Positions 31,640 to 43,145 are shown, counted from the first letter of the stretch. The stretch: 64,000 bases of DNA from Longimicrobiaceae bacterium (GCA_036375715.1 DASVBS010000060.1:62001-126000), one strand, 5' to 3'. Translations and numbers: made by a program. The notes: a model not told the origin generated them from the letters alone.

Positions 31640-31706
31640 TTCGCTTTCCTGGCATGGGGGATCGGGAGGCGTTTCTTTCTCCCGTCCCGTCAGGGCTGCT
31701 GTGGTT

Positions 31707-31715
31707 AGTATACCA
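31707..31715 (-). promoter_or_regulatory. Extended -10 promoter element upstream of E1
   Basis: On the minus strand the sequence reads TGGTATACT, an extended -10 (TGn plus TATACT), 68 bp before the E1 start codon. The -35 region 17 bp upstream is poor (TGGCCG), which fits an extended -10 promoter. Confidence 0.45.
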
Positions 31716-31863
31716 GCGCCGGCGGGGCCCGGCCAGGCTGCCCCGGTGCGCGGAACGGCCTGGAGCCGAAAGGTCCGGGCCACCGCTCCGCGGGTGGAAG
31801 TGTATGTGTTTCGCGCGCTTCAAGGCGCGTCAGTGTTCCCTCGGCAGTGCCTCGGGAGGGGCT

Positions 31864-32262
31864 ATGCTCAGACTCCTTCTCGTCTGCGGTCTGCTCGTCG
31901 TGGTGGCGAGTCCCACCGCGCGGGCATGGATCCGTCCTCACCTCGCTCCCATCCTGAATCCGGCCTACGAGTGGTCCGTGCGTTCCAGGGTGAGTGAGAT
32001 CGCGCGAACGATCGAGGCGGAGAGGGCGGCCAACCACGAAATTCCGATGGTGGGGCCGATTCCCGACTTCGTGCGCCGCCACTATTTCCAGAAGGACAGC
32101 CATCTGGATCCCTGGGGTACCCCGTACCACCTGCTCCAGACCGCGGACGGCCTCCAGGTGGCTTCCGCCGGCCCCGACCGTCAGATCGGGACGGAGGACG
32201 ATATCCTGTCGCCCCCGGTGGGGAAGGAGGAGGCGGCGGGGAGGTTGGGGGAGACAAGGTGA
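31864..32262 (+). CDS. Orphan GspG C-terminal-like protein with a cleavable signal
   Basis: 132 residues. A hydrophobic N-terminus ends in S-P-T-A-R-A-W, a likely Sec signal and not a type IV pilin leader. The body carries the major-pseudopilin C-terminal pattern: D-P-W-G-T-P-Y near residue 83 and S-A-G-P-D-R-Q-I-G-T-E-D-D-I, the calcium-loop region of GspG. The pilin helix is absent, so it is not a working pseudopilin by itself. Its last codons and stop lie inside the left arm of an 8-bp repeat (32253-32278), so the natural 3' end may have been changed by that element. Confidence 0.65.
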   Translation: MLRLLLVCGLLVVVASPTARAWIRPHLAPILNPAYEWSVRSRVSEIARTIEAERAANHEIPMVGPIPDFVRRHYFQKDSHLDPWGTPYHLLQTADGLQVASAGPDRQIGTEDDILSPPVGKEEAAGRLGETR

Positions 32263-32462
32263 CAAGGTGACGGGGTGACGGAACGGGTGACAAGGTGGAG
32301 GGCGTGGCAGGGCGGCGATCTGAGTCAGGGGTGGTTGCACCTAGAAGCGCCCAGCCCGAAGGCGAGCGTTCCGACAGCCCGCATGCTGACGGTTTGCCAA
32401 CCAGAGGCCTTTCGCCTGCCAGCCCGCTTCAGCCGTTCACCCTGTCACCTTGTCACCTTGTC
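32253..32462. repeat. Inverted pair of 8-bp (ACAAGGTG) tandem repeats
   Basis: The left arm, 32253-32278, is copies of the octamer ACAAGGTG with slight variation. The right arm, 32437-32462, is its reverse complement with 25 of 26 bases matching. About 158 bp of non-repeat, apparently non-coding sequence lies between, starting with a further loose copy at 32287-32297. The left arm includes the stop codon of the GspG-like gene; the right arm ends 53 bp before coaE. See the related elements at 33806, 40631 and 42857. Confidence 0.85.
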
Positions 32463-32515
32463 ACCCCCTCACGCCCCGCCCTACCTTCGCTGCTCGCAAC
32501 TGCAACGGAGGAGAC

Positions 32516-33127
32516 ATGCTCAAGGTCGGGCTGACGGGGAACATCGCGGCCGGCAAGTCGACGGTGGTGGATGTCTGGCGAGAGCTGGGAGCCAGGGTGG
32601 TCGACGCGGACGAGCTCGCGCGCCGGGCGGTGGAACCGGGCAGTCCGGGGCTGCGACGGATCGTCGAGCGTTGGGGGACAGGCGTGCTGAACGCCGCCGG
32701 TGAGCTGGATCGGGCCGCGATGCGCGCCCGTGTGTTCTCCGACCCGGCGGCGCGCAGCGAGTTGGAATCCATCATTCACCCCTTCGTCGCCGCGGCGCGC
32801 GACGCCGAGTTCGCCGCGGCGGAACGCGAGGGCGACCCGGTGGTGGTCGCCGATATCCCTCTGCTCTTCGAGGTGGGGCGAGAAAAGGAGTTCGACCTCG
32901 TGGTCCTGGTCGACGCCCCGGAGGCGGTCCGCCGAGAGCGGCTGGTGCGCGACCGCGGACTCGACCCGGTGGAGGCCGACCGCATGATCGCGGCACAGAT
33001 GCCCGCCACCGAGAAGCGCCCCCGCGCGGATATCATCATCGACAACGCCGGATCGCTGGAAGCGCTACGAAACCGCGCACGCGAGGCCTGGAGCGAGATC
33101 CTGCGTCGGGCAGGGGAGGGGAAGTGA
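32516..33127 (+). CDS. coaE: Dephospho-CoA kinase
   Basis: Phosphorylates dephospho-CoA, the last step of coenzyme A synthesis. 203 residues with Walker A G-N-I-A-A-G-K-S (about residues 8-15), the D-A-D-E-L-A-R motif near 34, I-I-H-P near 85, and D-I-P-L-L-F-E near 113. All are typical of CoaE. ATG 32516 has GGAGGAG just upstream. The stop overlaps the next gene (GTGA). Confidence 0.95.
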   Translation: MLKVGLTGNIAAGKSTVVDVWRELGARVVDADELARRAVEPGSPGLRRIVERWGTGVLNAAGELDRAAMRARVFSDPAARSELESIIHPFVAAARDAEFAAAEREGDPVVVADIPLLFEVGREKEFDLVVLVDAPEAVRRERLVRDRGLDPVEADRMIAAQMPATEKRPRADIIIDNAGSLEALRNRAREAWSEILRRAGEGK

Positions 33128-33801
33128 ACGTGGGGGAGGCCCGCATCCGGGTGGACATGCACACCCACACGCGCCGCTCCTTCGACTGCCTCACTACCCC
33201 CGAACGCTACCTCGACGCCCTCCGAGCTCGCGGGATCCATCGCGCCTTCGTCACCGATCACAACGCCATTGACGGCGCCCTGGAGATGTACGCCCGGGCG
33301 CCGGACCTCATCCTGGTCGGCGAGGAGGTGAAGACCCGCGAGGGGTTCGACCTGATCGGCCTCTTCCTCCGCGAGCTGATCCCCCGCGGTACGCCCGCCC
33401 GTGAGGTCGCCGAGCGGATCCGGGATCAGGGCGGAGTCGTCTACCTTCCCCACCCCTTCGACGTGGGCCGCTCGGGCGCCGGGGAGGCGCACGCCGATCG
33501 CCTGGCCGACCTCATCGATGTGGTCGAGGTCCACAACGCCCGCTGCTTCCGCGCCGCGACCAACGCCCGGGCCCTCGCCTGGGCGACCGCGAAAGGGAAG
33601 CTGCCGGGCGCTGGCTCAGACGCCCACACCGCCGCCGAGCTCGGCAACGGCTTCGTCGAGATGCCCCCCTTCGAACCCACCCGCGAAAGCTTCCTTGCCG
33701 CCCTCGCCCGGGGCGAGATCGGCCGCCGCACCCTCGCCGGCCCCTGGGTGAGGATCGCGTCCACGTACGCGAAGGCGCACAAGCGCATCTTCGGGGTGTG
33801 A
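33124..33801 (+). CDS. PHP-domain metal-dependent phosphoesterase
   Basis: 225 residues. Metal-binding pattern of the PHP fold: D-M-H-T-H-T (about residues 11-16), F-V-T-D-H-N-A near 41, E-E-V near 62, and G-S-D-A-H-T-A near 164. Likely a hydrolase of a phosphoester substrate such as a nucleotide or sugar phosphate; the substrate is unknown. The GTG start overlaps the coaE stop by four bases. The gene ends directly against the GAATTAC repeat element. Confidence 0.85.
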   Translation: MNVGEARIRVDMHTHTRRSFDCLTTPERYLDALRARGIHRAFVTDHNAIDGALEMYARAPDLILVGEEVKTREGFDLIGLFLRELIPRGTPAREVAERIRDQGGVVYLPHPFDVGRSGAGEAHADRLADLIDVVEVHNARCFRAATNARALAWATAKGKLPGAGSDAHTAAELGNGFVEMPPFEPTRESFLAALARGEIGRRTLAGPWVRIASTYAKAHKRIFGV

Positions 33802-33805
33802 TTAT

Positions 33806-33988
33806 GAATTACGAATTACGAATTACGAATTACGAATTACGAATTACGAATTACGAATTACGGAGCCGTTGCGAACGGCAGAGGTCACAAAGGTAAGCCC
33901 AGCGGACGCGCGGAACACCGCCCTTTCCTCTATTGTGAGCTCTGCGGTTTGCCGTAATTCGTAATTCATAATTCGTAATTCATAATTG
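33806..33988. repeat. GAATTAC heptad repeats in inverted arms between convergent genes
   Basis: The left arm, 33806-33861, is eight perfect tandem copies of GAATTAC. The right arm, 33954-33988, is five copies of the reverse-complement heptad (GTAATTC, two of them as ATAATTC, the last ATAATTG). The 92 bp between are unrelated to the repeat. The element fills the whole gap between the stop of the PHP gene (33801) and the stop of the convergent small gene (33994). It is very AT-rich against a GC-rich background. Confidence 0.9.
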
Positions 33989-33993
33989 CAGTC

Positions 33994-34362
33994 CTATTCC
34001 GCTTCCTGCGCAATCGCCAGGTATTCGAGCAGTTGCTCGCTGGTGAGCTGGTGCAGTTGTCGCGCGATGGAGGCGAACTGGGTCGGGATCGGGTCGGAGC
34101 CTTTGCGCACGAGGTCCGGGTCGATGTCGATCGTCCAGGCGGGGAGCTCCACGTCGCCGGTCGGGTCGATCCATTCCAGCGAGTGGAAGACCAGCGTCGC
34201 GCCCAGCTCGGAGGGTTCGTCCACGTAGGGAGCGACCTCCGCTTCGACCAGGTAGAGTTGATTGCCCTGCTGGACCGTGCGGAAGCCGAACGCCATGCCG
34301 AGTGTTCCTTCCCCCTCTTCGTCGTGATGGTGTTCGTGATGAAGGTGTTGATCGTTTGTCAT
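33994..34362 (-). CDS. Hypothetical small protein with a His/Glu-rich N-terminus
   Basis: 122 residues. The first about 20 contain a run rich in His, Asp and Glu (H-L-H-H-E-H-H-H-D-E-E-G-E), a possible metal-binding tail. The rest looks like one small alpha/beta domain and ends in a helix (L-T-S-E-Q-L-L-E-Y-L-A-I-A-Q-E). I do not recognise a family. It lies 44 bp after the helicase gene on the same strand and is probably co-transcribed with it. Confidence 0.6.
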   Translation of the reverse strand: MTNDQHLHHEHHHDEEGEGTLGMAFGFRTVQQGNQLYLVEAEVAPYVDEPSELGATLVFHSLEWIDPTGDVELPAWTIDIDPDLVRKGSDPIPTQFASIARQLHQLTSEQLLEYLAIAQEAE

Positions 34363-34406
34363 CTCTCTTCCCGGTTCAGGGGTGGAACTGCTCGCTAGCC
34401 CGGTGA

Positions 34407-37163
34407 TCAGCGTCGGCGGCGATTCCCTTGGCCACGCTCCCTTCTCCTGCGTCCTCTCGATTCGGTGCGTCCCTTCTCGTCGTGCTCGCCCTGCTCGTCC
34501 CGCGAGGTGCCCTTCCGCCCGGTCGCTGGGCCTGTTGGCCGCGGACCCGCTCGCTCCCGTCGTCCTGATCGCTTCCCACGGCGCGGTCCGCGCCCCTCCT
34601 CCGCGCCGCCCCGCCCGCGTCGCTCCGGTCGTTCACGCACGAGCAGCCCCTCCTGGCGCAGATCCACGCGTGGGCGGGCGGCGAGCTCTCTGGCCTCCTG
34701 CAGAGAGGTTGCCCGCAGCGCTTCACGCTTGCCGCGGAGAACGGTCCAGTGCAGCGGCCGGTCGAGCTGCGGAACGTCGTCGTTGTCGATCCGCTGGAGC
34801 AGTTTCTCGGGTACGCGCACCCGGACAACCGCCGTTCCTTCCTCGATTGCATAGTCCAGCGGCCATTCCTCGCCGCTGAGCTCCAGGGTATCGGGGAGGG
34901 CGAGCCAGCGCTGCCGTTCTTCGGGCGTGGCCCATTCGTCCGGGTCGATCTTCAGGTCCGCTTCGAGGAACTCCGCGTAGGAGCCGACCCCCTGCAGCTT
35001 CGCCAGGAAGTACTGGCGGAGCGCTTCCTCGGACACCTCCCGGGTGGCTCCTCCGGAGCGCCGGTAAACCTCGCGGAGCTCTCGCACCCGCTCCCGATTC
35101 TCTCGCACGTCGCGGTGGTATGCCACCCCCGCCGCCATGGCCGTAGCGAGCGCCCCCCGGGCCGCCTCCGCGAGATTCTCGGGGAACTCCGTGATCGGCT
35201 GCTCTTCGGAGTCCAGCTCGAAGCCCTGGTAGCTGCGGACCGATCGGGCGCGCAGCGGAGCGCGACGATGCCCGGGATCGTAAACAACCTCGACCTCCCC
35301 GCGTTCGGCGAACTCCCACAGCAGCTCGTACGGGATCTGGGTGCCCTCGATGGACCCGCGTGCGCGGCCAAAGCGATCGGAAAAGTAGCGCAGGTCTCCC
35401 ATCACCGCGCCCCAGCGGCCGCAGACGCTGGTGGGCGACACCCGCACCTGCTCTCCCCAGCTCGTTTCCTCGTCGATCACCAGGGCGAAAGGGGCAACCC
35501 GCGCGAGGAGCCGCTGCCACTCTCGCTCCAGTTTGCGGGTCAGTCGCGGGAAGCGCGCCGGCAGTTCCAGGTCCATGGACCGGTAGATGGAGGCGATCCC
35601 CAGCGCCGCGTCTTCGATCGAGCGGACCAGCACGCCCCGCTCGTCGGCCCACTCGGTGAGCGCGGTCTCGTCGAACAGATGCCGCGGCAGTCCGTACACG
35701 GTTCCCAGCGAGCCGCACTGCTCCAGCGCGTCCTGATAGAGCTGATACGCGGTGAGATGGTCGCTGCCGGGCACGACATAGGCCCCGATGTACCGGTCGG
35801 CCCGGGTCATCCGATGAAGGGACTCGATCGACGCGCAGGTGGCGACGACAGGCACGAGCTCCGACGGACCCTGGACCAGCAGCTCACCCCAGGGACGATC
35901 GACCGGGAGCACCTCCACCTCTCGCCCGTAGCGCGTCAGCCGATCCCCTTCGATGAGGCCGCGCCGCTCGAGCAGCTCGACCGCCCTCCGGTACGCGATC
36001 CTGTCGAGAGGAACCGGCAGGTCCAGCTCGTCGGCCCTCACCCCCATGTCGGCGCAGGTCATCGCCACACGCTCCGGATCCCCCGCGAGCTGGAAGTTGG
36101 GCGCCGTCGGCTGCAGCGAGTCGAAATCGATGTCTCGCTCCGACAGGATCCACACTTCTCCCCCTTCGACCCGGCCGTGGACTCGCCCCGCCATCTGCAG
36201 GATCTCGTTGGCGCCCAGAGGCAGGCGGGTCAGAACGCCCTTGCCCCGTTCGACCAGCGTGGTGAACTGCGCGTCCTCGATCACCACGGTGTCCAACCCC
36301 TGAATGTTGAGCGCGGACTGTCCCGCCGCCGTCATCGACAGCAGGTAGGGGTGGGGAGCGTCGCCTTCGAGAAAGGGGCGGAGCTTGGTGATGGGCTCAC
36401 CGCCGTGATAGTAGGCGGTGAAGATCTTCGGCCACCGCCCGGCCACGGTGGTCGCGATCTCCTCCGTCGAAGCCCTGGTGGGTACGAAGACCGCGACTCC
36501 GCGGTCTTCCTTGATGACGTGCCGCAGGAACCGGTCGCTGAGAAACTCCAGCGGCTGCGTGGTCCGGGAAATGCGCACCCGGGCGGCCTTCTGCGGATCG
36601 AAGGCGCTGGTCTCGATGACCTCCGCGGAATCGAGGTATTCGGCGTAGAAGGTGGGGTCGACCGTTGCGGAGAGCCAGATGAACCGGCACCCGGCGCGCT
36701 TTCCCAATGCCAGGCAGAGTTCCAGCTCGGCCGAGGTCTGATGGATCTCGTCCACCACGATCGTGTCATCGCCTACGATGAGATCGTCCTGGAGCCAGCG
36801 TCGCGCGATCCCCGTGGTAACGATGACCACGTTCCAGGTAGGTGTCTCCGGCGTCGCCTCCCGTTCGCGATTCACCACCCCCACCCGCAACGGCGTACCG
36901 ACGATCTCCTCGGCGATCGGCCGGATCGCCAGCGTCTTGCCGGTTCCCGTTCCGGCAACGATCCCGAAGCCTTGGCCGCTGGCGGCAAGCCGCCGGATGT
37001 CGTCCCCGTGCTCCTCCTCCAGCACCGTCCGGATCCCGGTGAGACCCACTCCGAGCTCGATCGTCTCGCACGCCGCGCGTGTCGGCGCGATGACCACCAG
37101 ACGCCCTCCCGTCGGCCGGCCGGGATATCGCTCCGAGGGTGGGATCGTGGGAACGTGAACCAT
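34407..37163 (-). CDS. DEAH-box (HrpA/HrpB-like) helicase with Arg/Gly-rich tail
   Basis: 918 residues from ATG 37163. Walker A G-T-G-T-G-K-T (71-77), motif II D-E-I-H, motif III W-L-S-A-T-V, and motif VI Q-M-A-G-R-V-H-G-R show an SF2 DEAH helicase. The middle and C-terminal parts, including W-P-L-D-Y-A-I-E-E-G, resemble the helicase-associated and C-terminal regions of HrpA/HrpB, so an RNA substrate is likely but not proven. The last about 90 residues are a low-complexity, highly basic R/G/E-rich tail, common in RNA-binding proteins. It is divergent from a TPR gene across a 240-bp gap in which I see no convincing promoter boxes. Confidence 0.85.
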   Translation of the reverse strand: MVHVPTIPPSERYPGRPTGGRLVVIAPTRAACETIELGVGLTGIRTVLEEEHGDDIRRLAASGQGFGIVAGTGTGKTLAIRPIAEEIVGTPLRVGVVNREREATPETPTWNVVIVTTGIARRWLQDDLIVGDDTIVVDEIHQTSAELELCLALGKRAGCRFIWLSATVDPTFYAEYLDSAEVIETSAFDPQKAARVRISRTTQPLEFLSDRFLRHVIKEDRGVAVFVPTRASTEEIATTVAGRWPKIFTAYYHGGEPITKLRPFLEGDAPHPYLLSMTAAGQSALNIQGLDTVVIEDAQFTTLVERGKGVLTRLPLGANEILQMAGRVHGRVEGGEVWILSERDIDFDSLQPTAPNFQLAGDPERVAMTCADMGVRADELDLPVPLDRIAYRRAVELLERRGLIEGDRLTRYGREVEVLPVDRPWGELLVQGPSELVPVVATCASIESLHRMTRADRYIGAYVVPGSDHLTAYQLYQDALEQCGSLGTVYGLPRHLFDETALTEWADERGVLVRSIEDAALGIASIYRSMDLELPARFPRLTRKLEREWQRLLARVAPFALVIDEETSWGEQVRVSPTSVCGRWGAVMGDLRYFSDRFGRARGSIEGTQIPYELLWEFAERGEVEVVYDPGHRRAPLRARSVRSYQGFELDSEEQPITEFPENLAEAARGALATAMAAGVAYHRDVRENRERVRELREVYRRSGGATREVSEEALRQYFLAKLQGVGSYAEFLEADLKIDPDEWATPEERQRWLALPDTLELSGEEWPLDYAIEEGTAVVRVRVPEKLLQRIDNDDVPQLDRPLHWTVLRGKREALRATSLQEARELAARPRVDLRQEGLLVRERPERRGRGGAEEGRGPRRGKRSGRRERAGPRPTGPATGRKGTSRDEQGEHDEKGRTESRGRRRRERGQGNRRRR

Positions 37164-37403
37164 GAATTGCGGACGTGTGTCGATACTCTGCAATTGGGGG
37201 CGCAAGCTCCGGCCGCGGTCGCGAATTCGCAAGTATGCCGCCAGGCGCCGCGGTCGTCCTGCGCTCGAACGGCTCGCAGCCCCGCTGGTTGCCACCCGTC
37301 GGGCGAAGGCGCCATTGGATTTTCCGGATAGATCGACTTTCGTTCGGGGGCGGCAACACGCTTCCCGCGTACGCCTTCGAAAGCGGTTTTACGGTGGAAA
37401 CGG

Positions 37404-39251
37404 ATGAATAATCTGCGAGATCTGCAGGTGCAGGCGCGAAGCCTGGAAAGTGCCGGCCAGCACGCTGCGGCGCTCAAGCTGTACGAGCGCATTCTGGAGG
37501 AGCCCGCGGGGCAGCGTGACGGCGGTGTGTGGGTGCGGAAGGCGCGCCTCCACCTCGCCCTGTCGCAGCAGACGGAGGCCGCGGAGAGCTACGCCACCGC
37601 AGCGGAGCGCTACCAGAGCATGGGGCTGGCAAATCTGGCCCTGGCGCAGAGTCAGCGTGCGGAGCAGGTGGATTCATCGCGGCCGGAGGGCTTCCTGCGC
37701 AGCGCCCGCCTGGCGGCGTCGCTGGGATATGCTCGCGACGCGCGGAGCAGCTTTCTGGCGTATGCCGATCGCGCGATCGCCACGAACGAGGAGGCCGCCG
37801 CGGTTGCCGCCCTACGGGAGTGTCTCTCCTTCTTCCCGGAAGACGAGGCCGTTCGCGCGCGGCTGGTAGAGCTCGCGGGTGAGGCGCCGCCGTACCCGCC
37901 CGTGTCGTTGCCGGAGGTGTCCGTGCGCGAGCGCATCGCTCCGACGGAAACGGAAGCCGGGCCGGCGGCTGTCCTGGAGGCCGACCCCGACGTCGGGGCC
38001 GCGCCGGCGGAGGTAGACGAGGTAGGGGTAGAGGAGCTGGTAGAAACATCAGCGGGTGCACCCGACGCTGCGCCGCAGGTGGAGCCACTCGAAGGCTTCG
38101 AGCCTACACGCGTCGAAGGGCCCTTCGACGCCTCACCGGAGGTGGAGCTGGAGAGCGACGCCGCCGAGGGCGCGTCTGATCCGGCGGTGTTCGCATCGCT
38201 CGATCTGGAAGGGGGCGAGGTTTCCGAGGAAGAAGAGCCCGACGCGGCCGAGGTCGAACCCCTGCCGCTTCTCGGCGTCGAGCCGGGCACCGTTGCGCCG
38301 ACCCCGGCGGAGGAGATTGCCGCCGCACGAGCGCGCGTAGCCGACAACCCGGGTGACCTGACGGCGCGCCGGGAACTGATCGCCCTGCTGCGAGCGCACG
38401 GAGCTCCGGAACTTGCTGAGGCCCTGGCTGACGCCGAGCGTCACTTCGCCGAGGCCGGGCGCATGGCCGAGGCGCTGCGCTTCGTGGAGGAGCTCGCTCG
38501 GCTAGAGCCGCGCGATACGGCTCTGCAGCAGCGGCGCGTCGAGCGGGCGCTGCGCGCGGGAGATCGGCAGGCTCTCCTCGATGCGTACCTCGCCCTCGCG
38601 GATGCGCTCGAAGCGGAGCGGAGGGTGGACGCCGCACGCGACGCGCTCCGGCGAGTGCTCGAGCTCGAGCCCGACAACGAGCGGGCGCGAGCCGTGGTGG
38701 GAGCGCCCACGAGCCTTTCACCAGCACGGGAGTACGTGGACCTGGGGGAGCTGATCCTGTCGGGGGTGCAGCAGGAGGCGACCCGTTTCCAGGTGGCGGC
38801 CCTGGAGCCGACGGGAGACGAGGAATCCGATTTCGAGGAGATCCTGAACCTCTTCCGCCAGAAGATCGCGCGCAGTCTCGACCCGAAGGATTCCGCCAGC
38901 CACTATGATCTTGGTCTGGCATTCAAGGAGATGGGGCTGCTGGACGACGCCATTATCCACCTGCAGAGCGGGTTGAGGGGTGGAGCCAATCCCCTGGCCA
39001 CGCTGGAGGTCCTGGGTGAGTGCTTCGTTCTGAAGGGGCAGACCTCCCTCGCGGCGCGCGTTTTCGAGCGTGCGACCCGCCTGGAGGGAGTGGGCGAAAG
39101 CGATCTGGTGGGGGTGCTCTATGGTCTCGCGCGCTGCCAGGAAGAACTGGGTCAGCGGGAGCAAGCCCGGGGAACGTACGAGCGCATCGTGGCGGTCGAT
39201 CTCTCGTTTCGCGACGCGGCACAGCGACTCGAACGACTGCAATCCCGCTGA
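37404..39251 (+). CDS. TPR-repeat protein with acidic low-complexity linker
   Basis: 615 residues. N-terminal TPR-like helices (residues 1 to about 155) are followed by an acidic linker of about 150 residues rich in Glu, Ala, Val, Pro and Asp. A second TPR array (about 300-615) includes A-S-H-Y-D-L-G-L-A-F-K-E-M-G-L-L-D-D-A-I near residue 495. No signal peptide or membrane segment, so probably cytosolic. TPR arrays are scaffolds for protein partners; none is evident here. The first about 50 residues are well predicted from ATG 37404. The 78-bp gap after it carries the promoter of the next gene. Confidence 0.8.
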   Translation: MNNLRDLQVQARSLESAGQHAAALKLYERILEEPAGQRDGGVWVRKARLHLALSQQTEAAESYATAAERYQSMGLANLALAQSQRAEQVDSSRPEGFLRSARLAASLGYARDARSSFLAYADRAIATNEEAAAVAALRECLSFFPEDEAVRARLVELAGEAPPYPPVSLPEVSVRERIAPTETEAGPAAVLEADPDVGAAPAEVDEVGVEELVETSAGAPDAAPQVEPLEGFEPTRVEGPFDASPEVELESDAAEGASDPAVFASLDLEGGEVSEEEEPDAAEVEPLPLLGVEPGTVAPTPAEEIAAARARVADNPGDLTARRELIALLRAHGAPELAEALADAERHFAEAGRMAEALRFVEELARLEPRDTALQQRRVERALRAGDRQALLDAYLALADALEAERRVDAARDALRRVLELEPDNERARAVVGAPTSLSPAREYVDLGELILSGVQQEATRFQVAALEPTGDEESDFEEILNLFRQKIARSLDPKDSASHYDLGLAFKEMGLLDDAIIHLQSGLRGGANPLATLEVLGECFVLKGQTSLAARVFERATRLEGVGESDLVGVLYGLARCQEELGQREQARGTYERIVAVDLSFRDAAQRLERLQSR

Positions 39252-39261
39252 CAGCCGGGTT

Positions 39262-39290
39262 TTGACAGTCGTCCGCGCGGCGGTTAGCTT
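39262..39290 (+). promoter_or_regulatory. Sigma70-type promoter for the polyprenyl synthase gene
   Basis: TTGACA (39262-39267), a 17-bp spacer, then TAGCTT (39285-39290). The start codon is 40 bp downstream. It lies just after the TPR gene stop. Confidence 0.65.
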
Positions 39291-39329
39291 CCCGCCCGCC
39301 CGCGTTCAACTTTCCCGCGCTACGAGCAG

Positions 39330-40316
39330 ATGCTTCGCACCGCGCCTCCGAAGCTGTCCCAGATCCAGGATCCCATCGTCGATCGGCTGGACCGGGTCGT
39401 CGACGAGTTCCGTCGCATCGTCGCGGCCGATTTCGATCGGGTCACCGAGATCAACGACTACCTGCTGCAGGTGCGGGGCAAGCTCTTCCGTCCCAGCCTC
39501 CTCCTTCTCTGCAGCGAGATCGGCGGCCGTTCGCGCCCCGAGGCGGAATCGCTCGCCGCGGTGGTCGAGCTGATCCATCTCTCCACTCTGGTCCACGACG
39601 ACGCCGTCGACCACTCCGTTCTGCGGCGGGGGATGCCGACCGTCAACGCCATGTGGAGCCACCAGGTCGCCATCATCATGGGCGACTATCTCTACTCCCG
39701 CTCGGTCAGCGAGCTGGCCCGGCTGGGAGACATCGAGCCGGTGCGCATCCTCGCTGCGGCGGCCAACGCCATGTCGGTGGGCGAGCTGCGGCAGCTCGCC
39801 TCCTGCGATGCCCTCGACTTCACCGAGCAGGACTATCACCTGCTGATCGAGTGCAAGACTGCGTCGCTCATCGCGGCCGCGTGCGAGCTCGGCGCCCTCT
39901 ACGGCGATCCGACCTACCGGGTGCCCCTGGCCCGCTTCGGGCACGATCTGGGGATGGCCTTCCAGATCGTGGATGACCTGCTCGACTACACCTCCGACGA
40001 GGCCGCGCTGGGCAAGCCGGCCGGGCTGGACCTGCGGGAGCACAAGGTGACCCTTCCCTTGCTGTACGCGCTCCCGCGGATGAGCAGGAGCGAGCGGGAG
40101 CGGGTGGAGGCCTTCTTCGCCGAGCCGATCCCCGACGACGCCGAGATCGCGGCGATCGTGCAGATGGTGCGCGATCGTGGCGGCTTGGATTATGCGAAGT
40201 CGCAGGCGCTCATGTTCGCCCAGAGGGCGCGTGAGTCGCTGGAAGGCCTGCCCATGAGCCCGGCTCTCCAGGCGCTGCGGGAGAGCATCGCCTACGTCGT
40301 GGAACGCCGCCACTGA
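39330..40316 (+). CDS. Polyprenyl diphosphate synthase (long-chain, trans)
   Basis: Extends an allylic diphosphate with isopentenyl diphosphate units, giving the side chain of a respiratory quinone (octaprenyl/heptaprenyl type). 328 residues. The first Asp-rich motif is L-V-H-D-D-A-V-D with Asp90, Asp91 and Asp94, followed by L-R-R-G. The second is Q-I-V-D-D-L-L-D with Asp215, Asp216 and Asp219. Both match the IspB/HepT family. Chain length cannot be read safely from sequence. It stands alone behind its own promoter and is followed by a small membrane-protein gene. Confidence 0.92.
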   Translation: MLRTAPPKLSQIQDPIVDRLDRVVDEFRRIVAADFDRVTEINDYLLQVRGKLFRPSLLLLCSEIGGRSRPEAESLAAVVELIHLSTLVHDDAVDHSVLRRGMPTVNAMWSHQVAIIMGDYLYSRSVSELARLGDIEPVRILAAAANAMSVGELRQLASCDALDFTEQDYHLLIECKTASLIAAACELGALYGDPTYRVPLARFGHDLGMAFQIVDDLLDYTSDEAALGKPAGLDLREHKVTLPLLYALPRMSRSERERVEAFFAEPIPDDAEIAAIVQMVRDRGGLDYAKSQALMFAQRARESLEGLPMSPALQALRESIAYVVERRH

Positions 40317-40349
40317 CGGGAATAAACCGTTGCCTCGGTTGGAGGGTTG

Positions 40350-40625
40350 ATGAACGTTGCAATCCGCCGAAGGGTGGGTCGCTTGTCGATGGTCGTGCTG
40401 GTGGGGTTGGTGCTCGGCGCATTGCTGACGGAGCTGACCGTTCGTTTTCTCCCGGAGAGCGCGGCCAGGGAGTTCTTCACCACCTCGGTCGCCGCCGCCT
40501 TCGGCCCTCTGGTGATCGACCTCGTCGCGGTCGGCGTGACCATCGGCCCCCTGGTCTTCCACCTCAACGCCCTCAGCGTGGCGGGAATACTGATCGTGGC
40601 GCTGGCGGCGAGGGCGTGGCTGTAA
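40350..40625 (+). CDS. DUF4321-like small membrane protein
   Basis: 91 residues with two hydrophobic segments (L-S-M-V-V-L-V-G-L-V-L-G-A-L-L-T-E near residues 12-28 and the C-terminal third). The layout, including L-P-E-S-A-A-R-E-F-F between them, fits the DUF4321 family of unknown function. ATG 40350 has GGAGGG just upstream; an adjacent TTG is also possible. It follows the polyprenyl synthase by 33 bp and may share its transcript. Confidence 0.65.
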   Translation: MNVAIRRRVGRLSMVVLVGLVLGALLTELTVRFLPESAAREFFTTSVAAAFGPLVIDLVAVGVTIGPLVFHLNALSVAGILIVALAARAWL

Positions 40626-40630
40626 GGGAA

Positions 40631-40929
40631 AGAAGCTAGGAGCCAGAAGCTAGAAGCAAGAATTCTTTGGGCCGGCCTCGAGGTTTAGGGCCGGCCCATT
40701 GCCGTGTTCTGGATTCTGCATTCTGACCCTTGTTCCCCGAGCCACTTCGTCGGGCCGGCTGCAGTCCGTGGCTCCAGGCGCCAACCTCGGATTACGTGAG
40801 GCTCCGGCACGCCCGAGATAGAGACGTCTGGCACCTGAGGGGGCAGAAGGAGGATAGGTAGAATGCTCCGGGGCCGGCGCTCTCACATCGAGGCCGGCCC
40901 CAGAATATTCTAGCTTCTAGCTCCTAGCT
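40631..40929. repeat. Heptad-repeat inverted element with two internal GC-rich hairpins
   Basis: Fills the 310-bp gap between two convergent genes. At the left edge are five heptads of consensus AGAAGCY, the last being AGAATTC (40631-40665). The segment 40634-40655 pairs with 40908-40929 on the opposite strand with 21 of 22 matches. Inside are two strong palindromes, 40668-40698 (10-bp stem of GGCCGGCC type) and 40870-40901 (9-bp stem). A further heptad run lies near 40705-40725 (TTCTG-containing units). No gene is visible in it. Confidence 0.85.
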
Positions 40930-40935
40930 CCTCCC

Positions 40936-42759
40936 CTAGCTCGCCACCGTCCTCCTCAACACCTCCTCCCGATTGTCCACAATCTCCGCCTCTTCGCGCA
41001 GGCTCTGGACGAACCGGGCGATCTCCTGCTGGCCCTGTTGGAGCTGCACCAGCATGCGGAGCGAGCCCTTCTGCTTCTGGAATTCCTCGGGGTCTGCTTC
41101 GGTGCGCTCGGTGGGACGGACGATGAAGAGGCCGGCGGGCGTCTCGACGACGTCGCTCACCTGGCCCACGGGAGTACCGAAGGCGGCACCCACGGCGGCA
41201 TTCGCCTGACCGAACGCCGGGTTCGGGCTGAGGCGCGTCACCGGTCCGATCGACTGCACCTCTAGCCCGCGTTCGCTCGCCGCGGCTTCCAGGGTCTTGC
41301 CGCCCCGAACCTCGGCCACGATCTGACTTCCGATCTCGCGCGCCTGGGCCCGCTTCTTCTCCTGGATGAGGCGCCGGCGAATCTCAGGCGTGGCCTCCTG
41401 CAGCGACATCTGCCCCGCCGGCGTAAAGGCCTCTCGCTCCACCACGTAGAACGCCTGGGGAGTCTCGAAGAGCGGGCTGACGGTCTCTCCGTCCTCCGCG
41501 GCGGATTCCTCCTCGGCCCACTCGATCGCCTCGAGCGTGGAGCCGATGCCCGGGACCAGCGACTGCTCGGCGGAGACCAGTACGCTCTGGCGCACGATCG
41601 CGTTGGTGGCCCGCGCCGCGCGTTGTACCCCGACCTGCTCGGCCAGCGTCTCCAGCGAGTCTGCACGGGCATAGAGCCGGTCCAGCGCCGCCTCGGTGGG
41701 CTCGATCGGGATCAGGATGTGCCGTGCACGGGCCGTATCCCCCTCCCGTTCCTCCACCCGGATCAGGTGATAACCGAAGGGGGAGAGGATCGGCTCGGAG
41801 AGCTCCCCGATAGGCAGGGAGAACGCGGCCTCGTCGAAGACCTCGGTCATCTGCCCGCGCGTGAACTGCCCCAGGTCGCCGCCGCGATCACGGGTACCCG
41901 GATCGGCCGACTCCCGCTGCGCCACCGCGGCGAAGTCCGCCCCGTCCAGGATCTCCTGTCGCACGGCCTGCGCTCGCTGCAGCGAGGCGGCCGTGTCCTC
42001 CGCCGTAGGAATTTTGGAGAGCATCGCGATGGTGAACCGCGCGGTCGCGGGACGGCGGAAGGAATCGCGGTTCCGCTCGTAGTAGGCACGGATCTCGGCG
42101 TCGGTGACCTCCACGTCGCCGGGGACGAGCTTCGCCACGTTCAGCGCGACGTAGTCCGCCGTGACCGTCTCGTTGCGATCCTTCCAGAGCTGCCACAGCT
42201 CGGCGTCCGAGATGTACATCCCCGCCGTCACCTGACGCAGCAGCTTCTCGCGCGGGATGATGCTGCGGTAATAGGCCTCGAGCTGGAGGAGCATCTGCTC
42301 GTTCGCCGTGGGCCCGGTCAGGAACTGCTGCCACTTCTGGATGTCGAACTGTCCATCGGTCATGAACAGCTCGTTCTGCATCAGCTGCGGATGCGGGTTC
42401 CAGAGCGCCGCCTGGCGGATCTCCTCGTCGGTAACCCCCAGCTGCCGCCGCTCCATCTCCTGCTGTATCAGGATGTCGTTCACCACCTGATTGAAGGCCG
42501 CATCCTCGAGCTGGCGGATCTGTTCGGCGGTGAGCTCACCCCCGGCCTGCGCCCGCGCCTGGTTGTAGAGTTCCTGGTAAGCAGCCGAATATGCCTGATA
42601 GGAGATGGACTGACCGTTGACGCGCCCCAGCTCGCCCGTCTGCATGCCCGCGCTCCGACCGGAGATGTCCATCCCCCATTCGAAGACCATCAAGCCCACG
42701 AATGCGAGGGCTACGATGATCATGATGATCTTCGTTTTCTCCCGCAGATCTTGCATCAT
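40936..42759 (-). CDS. PpiD/SurA-like periplasmic peptidyl-prolyl isomerase and chaperone
   Basis: 607 residues. A single N-terminal membrane anchor (I-I-M-I-I-V-A-L-A-F-V-G-L-M-V-F-E-W, about residues 11-28) places the rest in the periplasm. A SurA_N-like helical domain (about 35-200) with Q-L-E-D-A-A-F-N-Q-V-V-N-D-I-L-I is followed by a parvulin domain with G-G-D-L-G-Q-F and P-F-G-Y-H-L-I-R-V. A second, degenerate PpiC-like region follows (R-A-R-H-I-L-I onward). It probably assists folding of outer-membrane and secreted proteins. The start is one of two adjacent ATGs (42759 or 42756). Confidence 0.85.
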   Translation of the reverse strand: MMQDLREKTKIIMIIVALAFVGLMVFEWGMDISGRSAGMQTGELGRVNGQSISYQAYSAAYQELYNQARAQAGGELTAEQIRQLEDAAFNQVVNDILIQQEMERRQLGVTDEEIRQAALWNPHPQLMQNELFMTDGQFDIQKWQQFLTGPTANEQMLLQLEAYYRSIIPREKLLRQVTAGMYISDAELWQLWKDRNETVTADYVALNVAKLVPGDVEVTDAEIRAYYERNRDSFRRPATARFTIAMLSKIPTAEDTAASLQRAQAVRQEILDGADFAAVAQRESADPGTRDRGGDLGQFTRGQMTEVFDEAAFSLPIGELSEPILSPFGYHLIRVEEREGDTARARHILIPIEPTEAALDRLYARADSLETLAEQVGVQRAARATNAIVRQSVLVSAEQSLVPGIGSTLEAIEWAEEESAAEDGETVSPLFETPQAFYVVEREAFTPAGQMSLQEATPEIRRRLIQEKKRAQAREIGSQIVAEVRGGKTLEAAASERGLEVQSIGPVTRLSPNPAFGQANAAVGAAFGTPVGQVSDVVETPAGLFIVRPTERTEADPEEFQKQKGSLRMLVQLQQGQQEIARFVQSLREEAEIVDNREEVLRRTVAS

Positions 42760-42856
42760 GGTCGGATCAGGCTCCAGCTCAGATGGGGCGGTTCAGCATG
42801 CACGATGTATCGGAAACAGCGGAATTTAGCGGATCCGAAGAGCGAGACGCAAGTTC

Positions 42857-43145
42857 GGAAGCCAGAAGCCAGGAGCCAGAAGCCAGAATTCCCCTTCCTC
42901 GGGCTTCCTGGCGTCCTGGCTCACGTCGACACCAGCCCAGAACGTCAAGCTTGAGCCGTGGCTCATGGCCCGCGCACAGCCGCCGGCCGTCGGACGGGAA
43001 AACTCAAGCCAGAACTAGCTGCTTCCGGTACTTTGGGGTGGGTTCTCGGCGAAGGCGGCAGCCTCTTTCGGGAACTATCGCCCCCTTGGTCAAGGAACCC
43101 CCGAACAAGAAAATTCTGGCTTCTGGCTCCTGGCTCCTGGCTTCC
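42857..43145. repeat. Heptad-repeat inverted element between divergent genes
   Basis: The left arm, 42857-42890, is heptads of consensus RGAAGCC; base 42891 completes a terminal AGAATTC. It pairs with 43112-43145 on the opposite strand with 33 of 34 matches. The 221 bp between are non-repetitive and look non-coding. The element takes up most of the 482-bp gap between the PPIase start (42759) and the next gene (43242), ending about 20 bp before that gene's promoter. The arm design (five heptads ending AGAATTC) is the same as in the 40631 element. Confidence 0.88.

Follow-up and report, generated by a model that had tools for sequence, protein, structure and literature searches.

What kind of element carries short tandem repeats at one edge of an intergenic gap and the same repeats, inverted, at the other? 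Four such elements, designated E1-E4, lie within 11 kb of a 64,000-nucleotide stretch of a Longimicrobiaceae bacterium genome (GCA_036375715.1; positions 62001-126000 of contig C60, DASVBS010000060.1), the whole of which is called the window and from whose first letter positions are counted. The inverted pair is the unit of organisation of these elements, each pair being built from one word with a polarity that is fixed for that word. The evidence leans, if modestly, towards dispersed, non-autonomous, hairpin-forming intergenic elements in which an inverted pair of word arrays surrounds a core, mostly at gene 3' ends.

Architecture of the four elements

The earlier note on this DNA had described one design shared by four gaps, three built from heptads and one from an octad, and this was borne out, as every one of E1-E4 is a pair of inverted arrays with a unit of 7 or 8 bp:

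32235..32278, plus strand: E1 left arm, with a GGTGACAA octad array at 32253-32279
32279..32436, no strand: E1 interior, single copy in the genome
32437..32480, minus strand: E1 right arm, inverted octads TCACCTTG, about 35 bp 5' of the coaE start (32516)
33801..33863, plus strand: E2 left array, about nine units ATTACGA/ATTATGA, 62 bp
33864..33951, no strand: E2 interior, with a weaker inner inverted pair GCAGAGGTCACAAAGG / CCTCTATTGTGAGCTCTGC
33952..33987, minus strand: E2 right array, five units, ending 6 bp short of the converging minus-strand gene 33994-34362
40631..40662, plus strand: E3 left array, AGAAGCT/AGGAGCC, 5 bp past the stop of a 92-aa plus-strand gene (40347-40625)
40663..40907, no strand: E3 interior, with GGGCCGGCC inverted motifs towards either end (near 40669-40697 and near 40870-40901), plus a small run of ATTCTGC heptads
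40908..40932, minus strand: E3 right array, ending 3 bp ahead of the converging PPIase/SurA-N gene (40936-42759)
42858..42888, plus strand: E4 left array, AGAAGCC/AGGAGCC
42889..43113, no strand: E4 interior, single copy
43114..43144, minus strand: E4 right array, about 20 bp upstream of a promoter-like TTGACC-17-TAACTT

The arm matches given in that note were reproduced. In E1, the best arms (32253-32278 / 32437-32462) match at 25/26 nt across a 158-bp spacer, and they can be prolonged with mismatches to 32235-32278 / 32437-32480. E2 is a pair of GAATTAC heptad arrays that separates a PHP-domain gene from a small converging gene; its arms lie at 33801-33834 / 33953-33986 (33/34), with a spacer of 118 bp, or 88 bp when counted from where the left array stops. 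The arms of E3 (40634-40655 / 40908-40929) match at 21/22 with a spacer of 252 bp, and those of E4 (42857-42890 / 43112-43145) at 33/34 with a spacer of 221 bp. The promoter-like sequence after E4 is common to relatives and precedes a TPR gene (43242).

Two broader statements of the note stand in part. Arms are indeed complementary while the unit changes between elements, but not every element has a unit of its own: E3 and E4, which flank the PPIase/SurA-N gene with one AGAAGCC-type pair per side (gene identities from Pfam), share one heptad family, leaving three unit families in the window rather than four. Likewise, the elements lie mostly, but not only, between genes, since the E1 left array contains the stop codon (32260-32262) of a T2SSG-like open reading frame (31654-32262), and the E2 array begins at the last base of the stop codon of the PHP-domain gene. 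The final residues of the T2SSG-like protein come from the E1 left arm, and its orthologues align only to about residue 184-194 of 202.

Paired organisation and fixed polarity across the genome

The genome comprises 4.37 Mb in 87 contigs, and repeats were surveyed in an 832-kb sample, about one fifth of it, with crude gene calls from a simple codon model (674 genes, 85.6% coding). Strong inverted repeats with a spacer of at most 450 bp number 62 in this sample, where a second-order Markov control has 1, and almost all of the 62 consist of arrays with units of 7 or 8 bp in inverted orientation. Among tandem repeats, periods of 7 and 8 bp predominate, the remaining periods being rare and mostly in coding sequence, and 131 of the 136 period-7 arrays are intergenic. 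Array pairs lie close to genes (median outer-edge distance 21.5 bp; median spacer 95 bp) and occur in 22% of gaps of at least 150 bp. Gaps with paired arrays are convergent or divergent in a ratio of 13:5, compared with 35:50 in gaps of at least 150 bp (p=0.02). The earlier note had staked its case on the arms recurring elsewhere in the genome, and hundreds of matches were found (456 for GAATTAC, 104 for CCAGRAG and 136 for GGTGACAA, with 0 for the reversed-pattern controls). The dispersal through the genome and the gain and loss at orthologous gaps that it envisaged are supported by this census and by the gap comparison below.

With tandem structure as the sole criterion for detecting arrays, neighbours that share a unit within one gap were inverted in 52 cases and direct in 4. 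Neighbours arranged purine-left/pyrimidine-right share their unit in 48 of 63 pairs, compared with a permuted mean of 20.7 and maximum of 34. Even among seemingly unpaired arrays, 48/91 have a partial inverted partner (control 1), some of them being pairs missed through an intervening array. Polarity is consistent within the unit family in 52/52 pairs of this genome, including AATTACG (26/26), AAGCCAG (8/8) and AAGGTGAC (6/6), with AACGGAT and AAAATTC in the opposite sense. AATTACG, AATCCCT and AACCAATC retain their polarity in other genomes, and the words of one Anaerolineae, one Thermoflexus and one Chitinophaga genome each show a single polarity, with few counts per word. Random pairing of independent arrays would yield both polarities, so fixed polarity speaks against it.

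The arms also share their variants. Of 51 variant units in Chitinophaga solisilvae, 29 (57%) have a mirrored counterpart at the matching place in the opposite arm, compared with 10% after permutation (maximum 25%), and both arms of one element are therefore mutual copies. This analysis supersedes an earlier within-element arm comparison, whose positive result for the AGAAGCC and GGTGACAA families was biased because its repeats had been picked for complementarity.

A second dispersed hairpin family, GATCCTGAGCGAAGCGAAGGATC, lies within or next to some of the elements in the window genome (L018 1797-1851, L004 13285-13340, L024 10962-10989, L039 14807-14889 and L011 11182-11210). Several GAATTAC interiors (window 33864-33951; L010 5295-5463; L020 15172-15343) contain degenerate CAGAGGTCAC-like motifs, and CAGAGG is confined to the left half (6:0) and CCTCTG to the right half (4:0) of these interiors, forming a nested, older-looking inverted pair.

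Turnover at orthologous gaps

Gene order is conserved around E3 and E4. In G001, which belongs to another genus, an inverted GGGAACA-type pair encloses a classical terminator hairpin in the E3 gap, and inverted AGTCTTC arrays lie immediately 5' of the shared promoter-like sequence in the E4 gap. The E1 gap contains nested AAGTGCG, TTAGTCC and GCACTCA pairs in G015 and is short and array-free in G001, while the E2 gap of G008 carries an unpaired TTCACCC array. These different words at orthologous gaps indicate that the sites have been occupied repeatedly, each time with other words. The earlier note had also looked to such gaps, and what they contain is paired arms rather than unpaired slippage alone.

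A closer comparison is available in Chitinophaga, where the gene of a retron reverse transcriptase is followed by a convergent gap that holds a plain terminator in three species. G040 carries a GAAGACCTGAGC..GCTCAGGTCTTC terminator without GAATTAC arms, its close relative G078 has the same GAAGACCTGAGC..GCTCAGGTCTTC core within eight and three GAATTAC units, and G044 has TAGCTGT / GCTAAAA arms. Comparison of the G078 and G040 sequences indicates gain or loss of the left and right arms alike, around a terminator core that stayed conserved. Three further Chitinophaga gaps have armed hairpins in some species and plain terminators in others, and in a fourth two species retain just a degenerate left array. 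The enzyme encoded beside the first gap (L247 3480-5435, L248 3106-5068, orthologues L249-L253) is a type XIII retron reverse transcriptase (PADLOC RT_XIII, E about 1e-193). The RNA upstream of it is strongly conserved, with a long stem supported by compensatory changes in 10 pairs across 6 species, and has no Rfam match.

Distribution among bacteria

The GAATTAC word is absent from 20 other genomes of the same family, representing 9 other genera. A scan for its inverted pair across 85,000 species returned 92 stretches, with hosts including Chitinophaga, Ferruginibacter, Saprospiraceae, Prevotellaceae, Desulfocapsaceae, Anaerolineae, Thermoflexus, Akkermansia and Hydrogenedentota, and it thus reaches Bacteroidota, Chloroflexota, Verrucomicrobiota and others. 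These loci were retrieved by word and polarity, so it is their breadth, and not their word or polarity, that counts as independent evidence. Within Chitinophaga, GAATTAC occurs in 19 of 79 genomes, with bursts in a few.

De novo scans revealed the same architecture built from other words, including AGTCTTC, AGTCGTC, ATCAGCT and AGGGAAC in G001, TTAGTCC in G015, and AAGTGCT, AAGGATG and AATCCCT in Chloroflexota genomes. Several relatives have almost no arrays in these scans, some of the compared genomes being fragmentary metagenome-assembled genomes (MAGs). AGCCAGG, AAGTGCT and AAAGTGC also recur between unrelated genomes, in small numbers. The element class is thus large and patchily distributed, and is gained, lost and re-worded between related bacteria.

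Very dense GAATTAC arrays are present in Prevotellaceae MAGs (L043, L056, L061, L108 and others), with multi-level nesting around short hairpins such as CCGGCTTCGG. Carriage by phages was considered and set aside, as a search of 2.9 million viral contigs for the GAATTAC pair pattern gave 0 matches. Three IMG/VR contigs listed as viral (L244-L246) bear GGTGACAA octad arrays.

Origin of the paired arrays

The interpretation as dispersed, non-autonomous hairpin elements draws direct support from the paired organisation, the fixed polarity, the turnover, the arm mirroring in C. solisilvae and the 3'-end bias. The dispersed copies of Chitinophaga element A, which have a core in common, also agree with it. 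Imperfect inverted repeats are established sites of template switching. Given this copying route and the mirrored variant units of C. solisilvae, one arm may serve as template for the word array of the other, with copying across the base of the hairpin through template switching or inter-arm conversion. Existing arrays would seed new sites through copying mediated by a single strand or a hairpin, and array length would be set by slippage in steps of 7-8 bp. Transcription boundaries, whether bidirectional or at 3' ends, may tolerate the hairpin or even be formed in part by it, and some elements would occupy positions otherwise held by terminators, with perhaps a share of their function. The element itself would be mainly a selfish or neutral passenger rather than a dedicated regulator.

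Several observations weigh against this interpretation. E4 separates divergent genes, and a terminator would be meaningless there. The arm variants of the GAATTAC elements in the window genome are unmatched, with values of 0.877 within and 0.868 between elements. Interiors in this genome are almost all single-copy, and copy-and-paste of a whole element was not seen here. Array-free orthologous gaps are shorter by more than the arms (about 5-105 bp for E1 by reading, compared with 253 bp here), so some interior came with the arms in the window lineage, which contrasts with the Chitinophaga reverse transcriptase gap. The Chitinophaga gap comparison shows no clean target-site duplication, whole gap contents being swapped with no clean junction. 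Finally, no writing enzyme was found in searches covering the Y1 and RVT_1 families.

A serious rival, though an unlikely one overall, is that these are ordinary miniature inverted-repeat transposable elements (MITEs), in which the arms are terminal inverted repeats for a transposase encoded elsewhere and whole units move. It is best supported in Chitinophaga, where element A, an armed hairpin family, has dozens of dispersed copies with 85-97% identity and a common core, and fixed polarity, presence and absence at orthologous sites and patchy distribution also agree with it. However, many copies with a shared interior, as in element A, are not found in the window genome. Its single-copy interiors and the variable array length speak against this rival, and no clean target-site duplication was seen in the gaps compared. 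Y1/RAYT is absent from G000 (the window genome), G001, G033, G044, G034 and G035, and no gene-sized cargo between paired arrays was convincing.

Transcription stops under selection, bidirectional or at 3' ends, with heptads extending the stem base of terminator hairpins, are a doubtful explanation of the class. The bias towards convergent gaps favours it, as do armed hairpins at the positions of sister species' plain terminators, in three compared gaps and in the reverse transcriptase gap. The whole E1-E4 gaps each fold as one rod (z -5.9 to -8.8), one element lies within an A/T-flanked terminator palindrome, and some Chitinophaga elements enclose a GC hairpin with a T tract. However, no intrinsic terminator (GC hairpin and T tract) was called in E1-E4 and none has a U tract, divergent gaps hold 5/51 pairs as well as E4, nearly 80% of gaps of at least 150 bp lack a pair, and the commonest word is missing from all sampled relatives. 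The elements may nonetheless act as bidirectional transcription stops, as the earlier note had suggested.

It is improbable, though conceivable, that a horizontally mobile activity writes paired inverted 7-8 nt templated words at gene borders in many phyla, with a polarity set per word and words swapped at a site. Candidate writers were sought and rejected. A RAYT/Y1 transposase was rejected on the absences listed above, in the window genome and several word-rich genomes, PF01797 (the Y1/HUH transposase of REPIN/RAYT systems) having no match in G000, G001, G033 or G044. Telomerase-like writing by a reverse transcriptase was set aside as RVT_1 is absent from G000, G015, G034, G035 and G038, and the Chitinophaga enzyme, which is the type XIII retron reverse transcriptase, is present both with and without the words.

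Other mechanisms were likewise discarded. Insertion into a palindromic target is not reflected in the outer flanks, which are no more complementary than chance. Large cargo-bearing versions were sought, and no convincing paired arrays around gene-sized cargo were found. The idea that the whole element is a quasi-palindrome was dropped as well: E1-E4 form rods, but the interiors of 48 elements are no more structured or symmetric than ordinary gaps.

Two remaining explanations have very little left in their favour. Genes for structured non-coding RNAs, raised in the earlier note, would account for the strong folding of whole gaps, but this folding is due to the arms, interiors fold no better than ordinary gaps and are not conserved, and an Rfam covariance search of the elements gave no match. 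That the arrays expanded by slippage independently, the two arms being linked neither by function nor by copying, is scarcely credible: slippage by the polymerase has been proposed for the long heptad repeats over-represented in many bacteria (as cited in PMC4692102 and PMC4679880), and some arrays are unpaired, such as that in the E2 gap of G008, but this explanation is already contradicted by the 52:4 inverted pairing, by the fixed polarity with one word in both arms, and by identical words at hundreds of loci and across phyla.

Relation to known repeats

REP/REPIN sequences are similar in being dispersed intergenic hairpins with two inverted units around a spacer; unlike in REPIN/RAYT systems, the Y1 transposase is absent from the window genome. 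REP/REPIN palindromes are not known to contain tandem units. Small mobile repeats have reportedly also been studied in cyanobacteria. The likeness to cyanobacterial STRR repeats drawn in the earlier note is correct, as the STRR heptads and the GGGGA(T/C)T repeats of Nostoc/Calothrix are likewise intergenic, lineage-specific heptad arrays.

The same note took the inverted arrangement to be an addition to what was known; this does not hold, since Xanthomonas genomes each contain 70-75 convergent inverted pairs of GGGAATC heptads (PMC4692102). As in the window genome, those arrays have period 7 (one family here has period 8), are mostly intergenic and near gene edges (0-50 bp from genes in Xanthomonas), occupy many loci, often form inverted pairs and are commoner in convergent than in divergent gaps (PMC4692102). 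The Xanthomonas repeats are described there as G-quadruplex-forming and largely conserved in position between two genomes (PMC4692102). By contrast, GAATTAC, GAAGCCA and GGTGACAA contain no G3 tract and fall outside the GGGANTN G-quadruplex pattern, arm words differ between genera, and words recur in other phyla. In Anabaena just a few inverted pairs are reported in that source (PMC4692102), whereas the arrays described here are, as a rule, paired in inverted orientation.

TAACTGA repeats of Beggiatoaceae, Cyanobacteria and Bacteroidetes resemble the present words in the patchy occurrence of a single heptad in distant lineages; horizontal transfer was suggested for them and no mechanism found (PMC4679880). 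Unlike the arrays here, they are direct repeats (1 inverted case against 169 direct sets), mostly just 5' of start codons (PMC4679880). In the P6b stem of the Nostoc tRNA-Leu group I intron, complementary heptad arrays form the stem and the heptad class has been repeatedly replaced on site, though within a self-splicing intron and at one locus (PMC4476775). The literal repeat sequences were not encountered in the papers searched. The passages of the heptad-repeat literature covered, in a search with subscription journals mostly outside it, likewise describe neither a fixed polarity nor the recurrence of words across phyla nor their replacement at orthologous intergenic gaps. Inverted heptad pairs are thus already published for Xanthomonas, and the additions here are the non-G-rich units, the words shared across phyla, the fixed polarity and the word replacement at orthologous sites.

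Significance

Earlier accounts of heptad arrays are scattered over cyanobacteria, Xanthomonas and Beggiatoaceae and agree on no origin. The array-rich genomes of the present sample suggest that arrays usually come as inverted pairs, which keep a fixed polarity, spread in bursts and exchange their word at orthologous gaps, and these properties make the question of origin testable. Named close species with and without arms at one gap show that arms are gained or lost together and that armed hairpins alternate with terminators.

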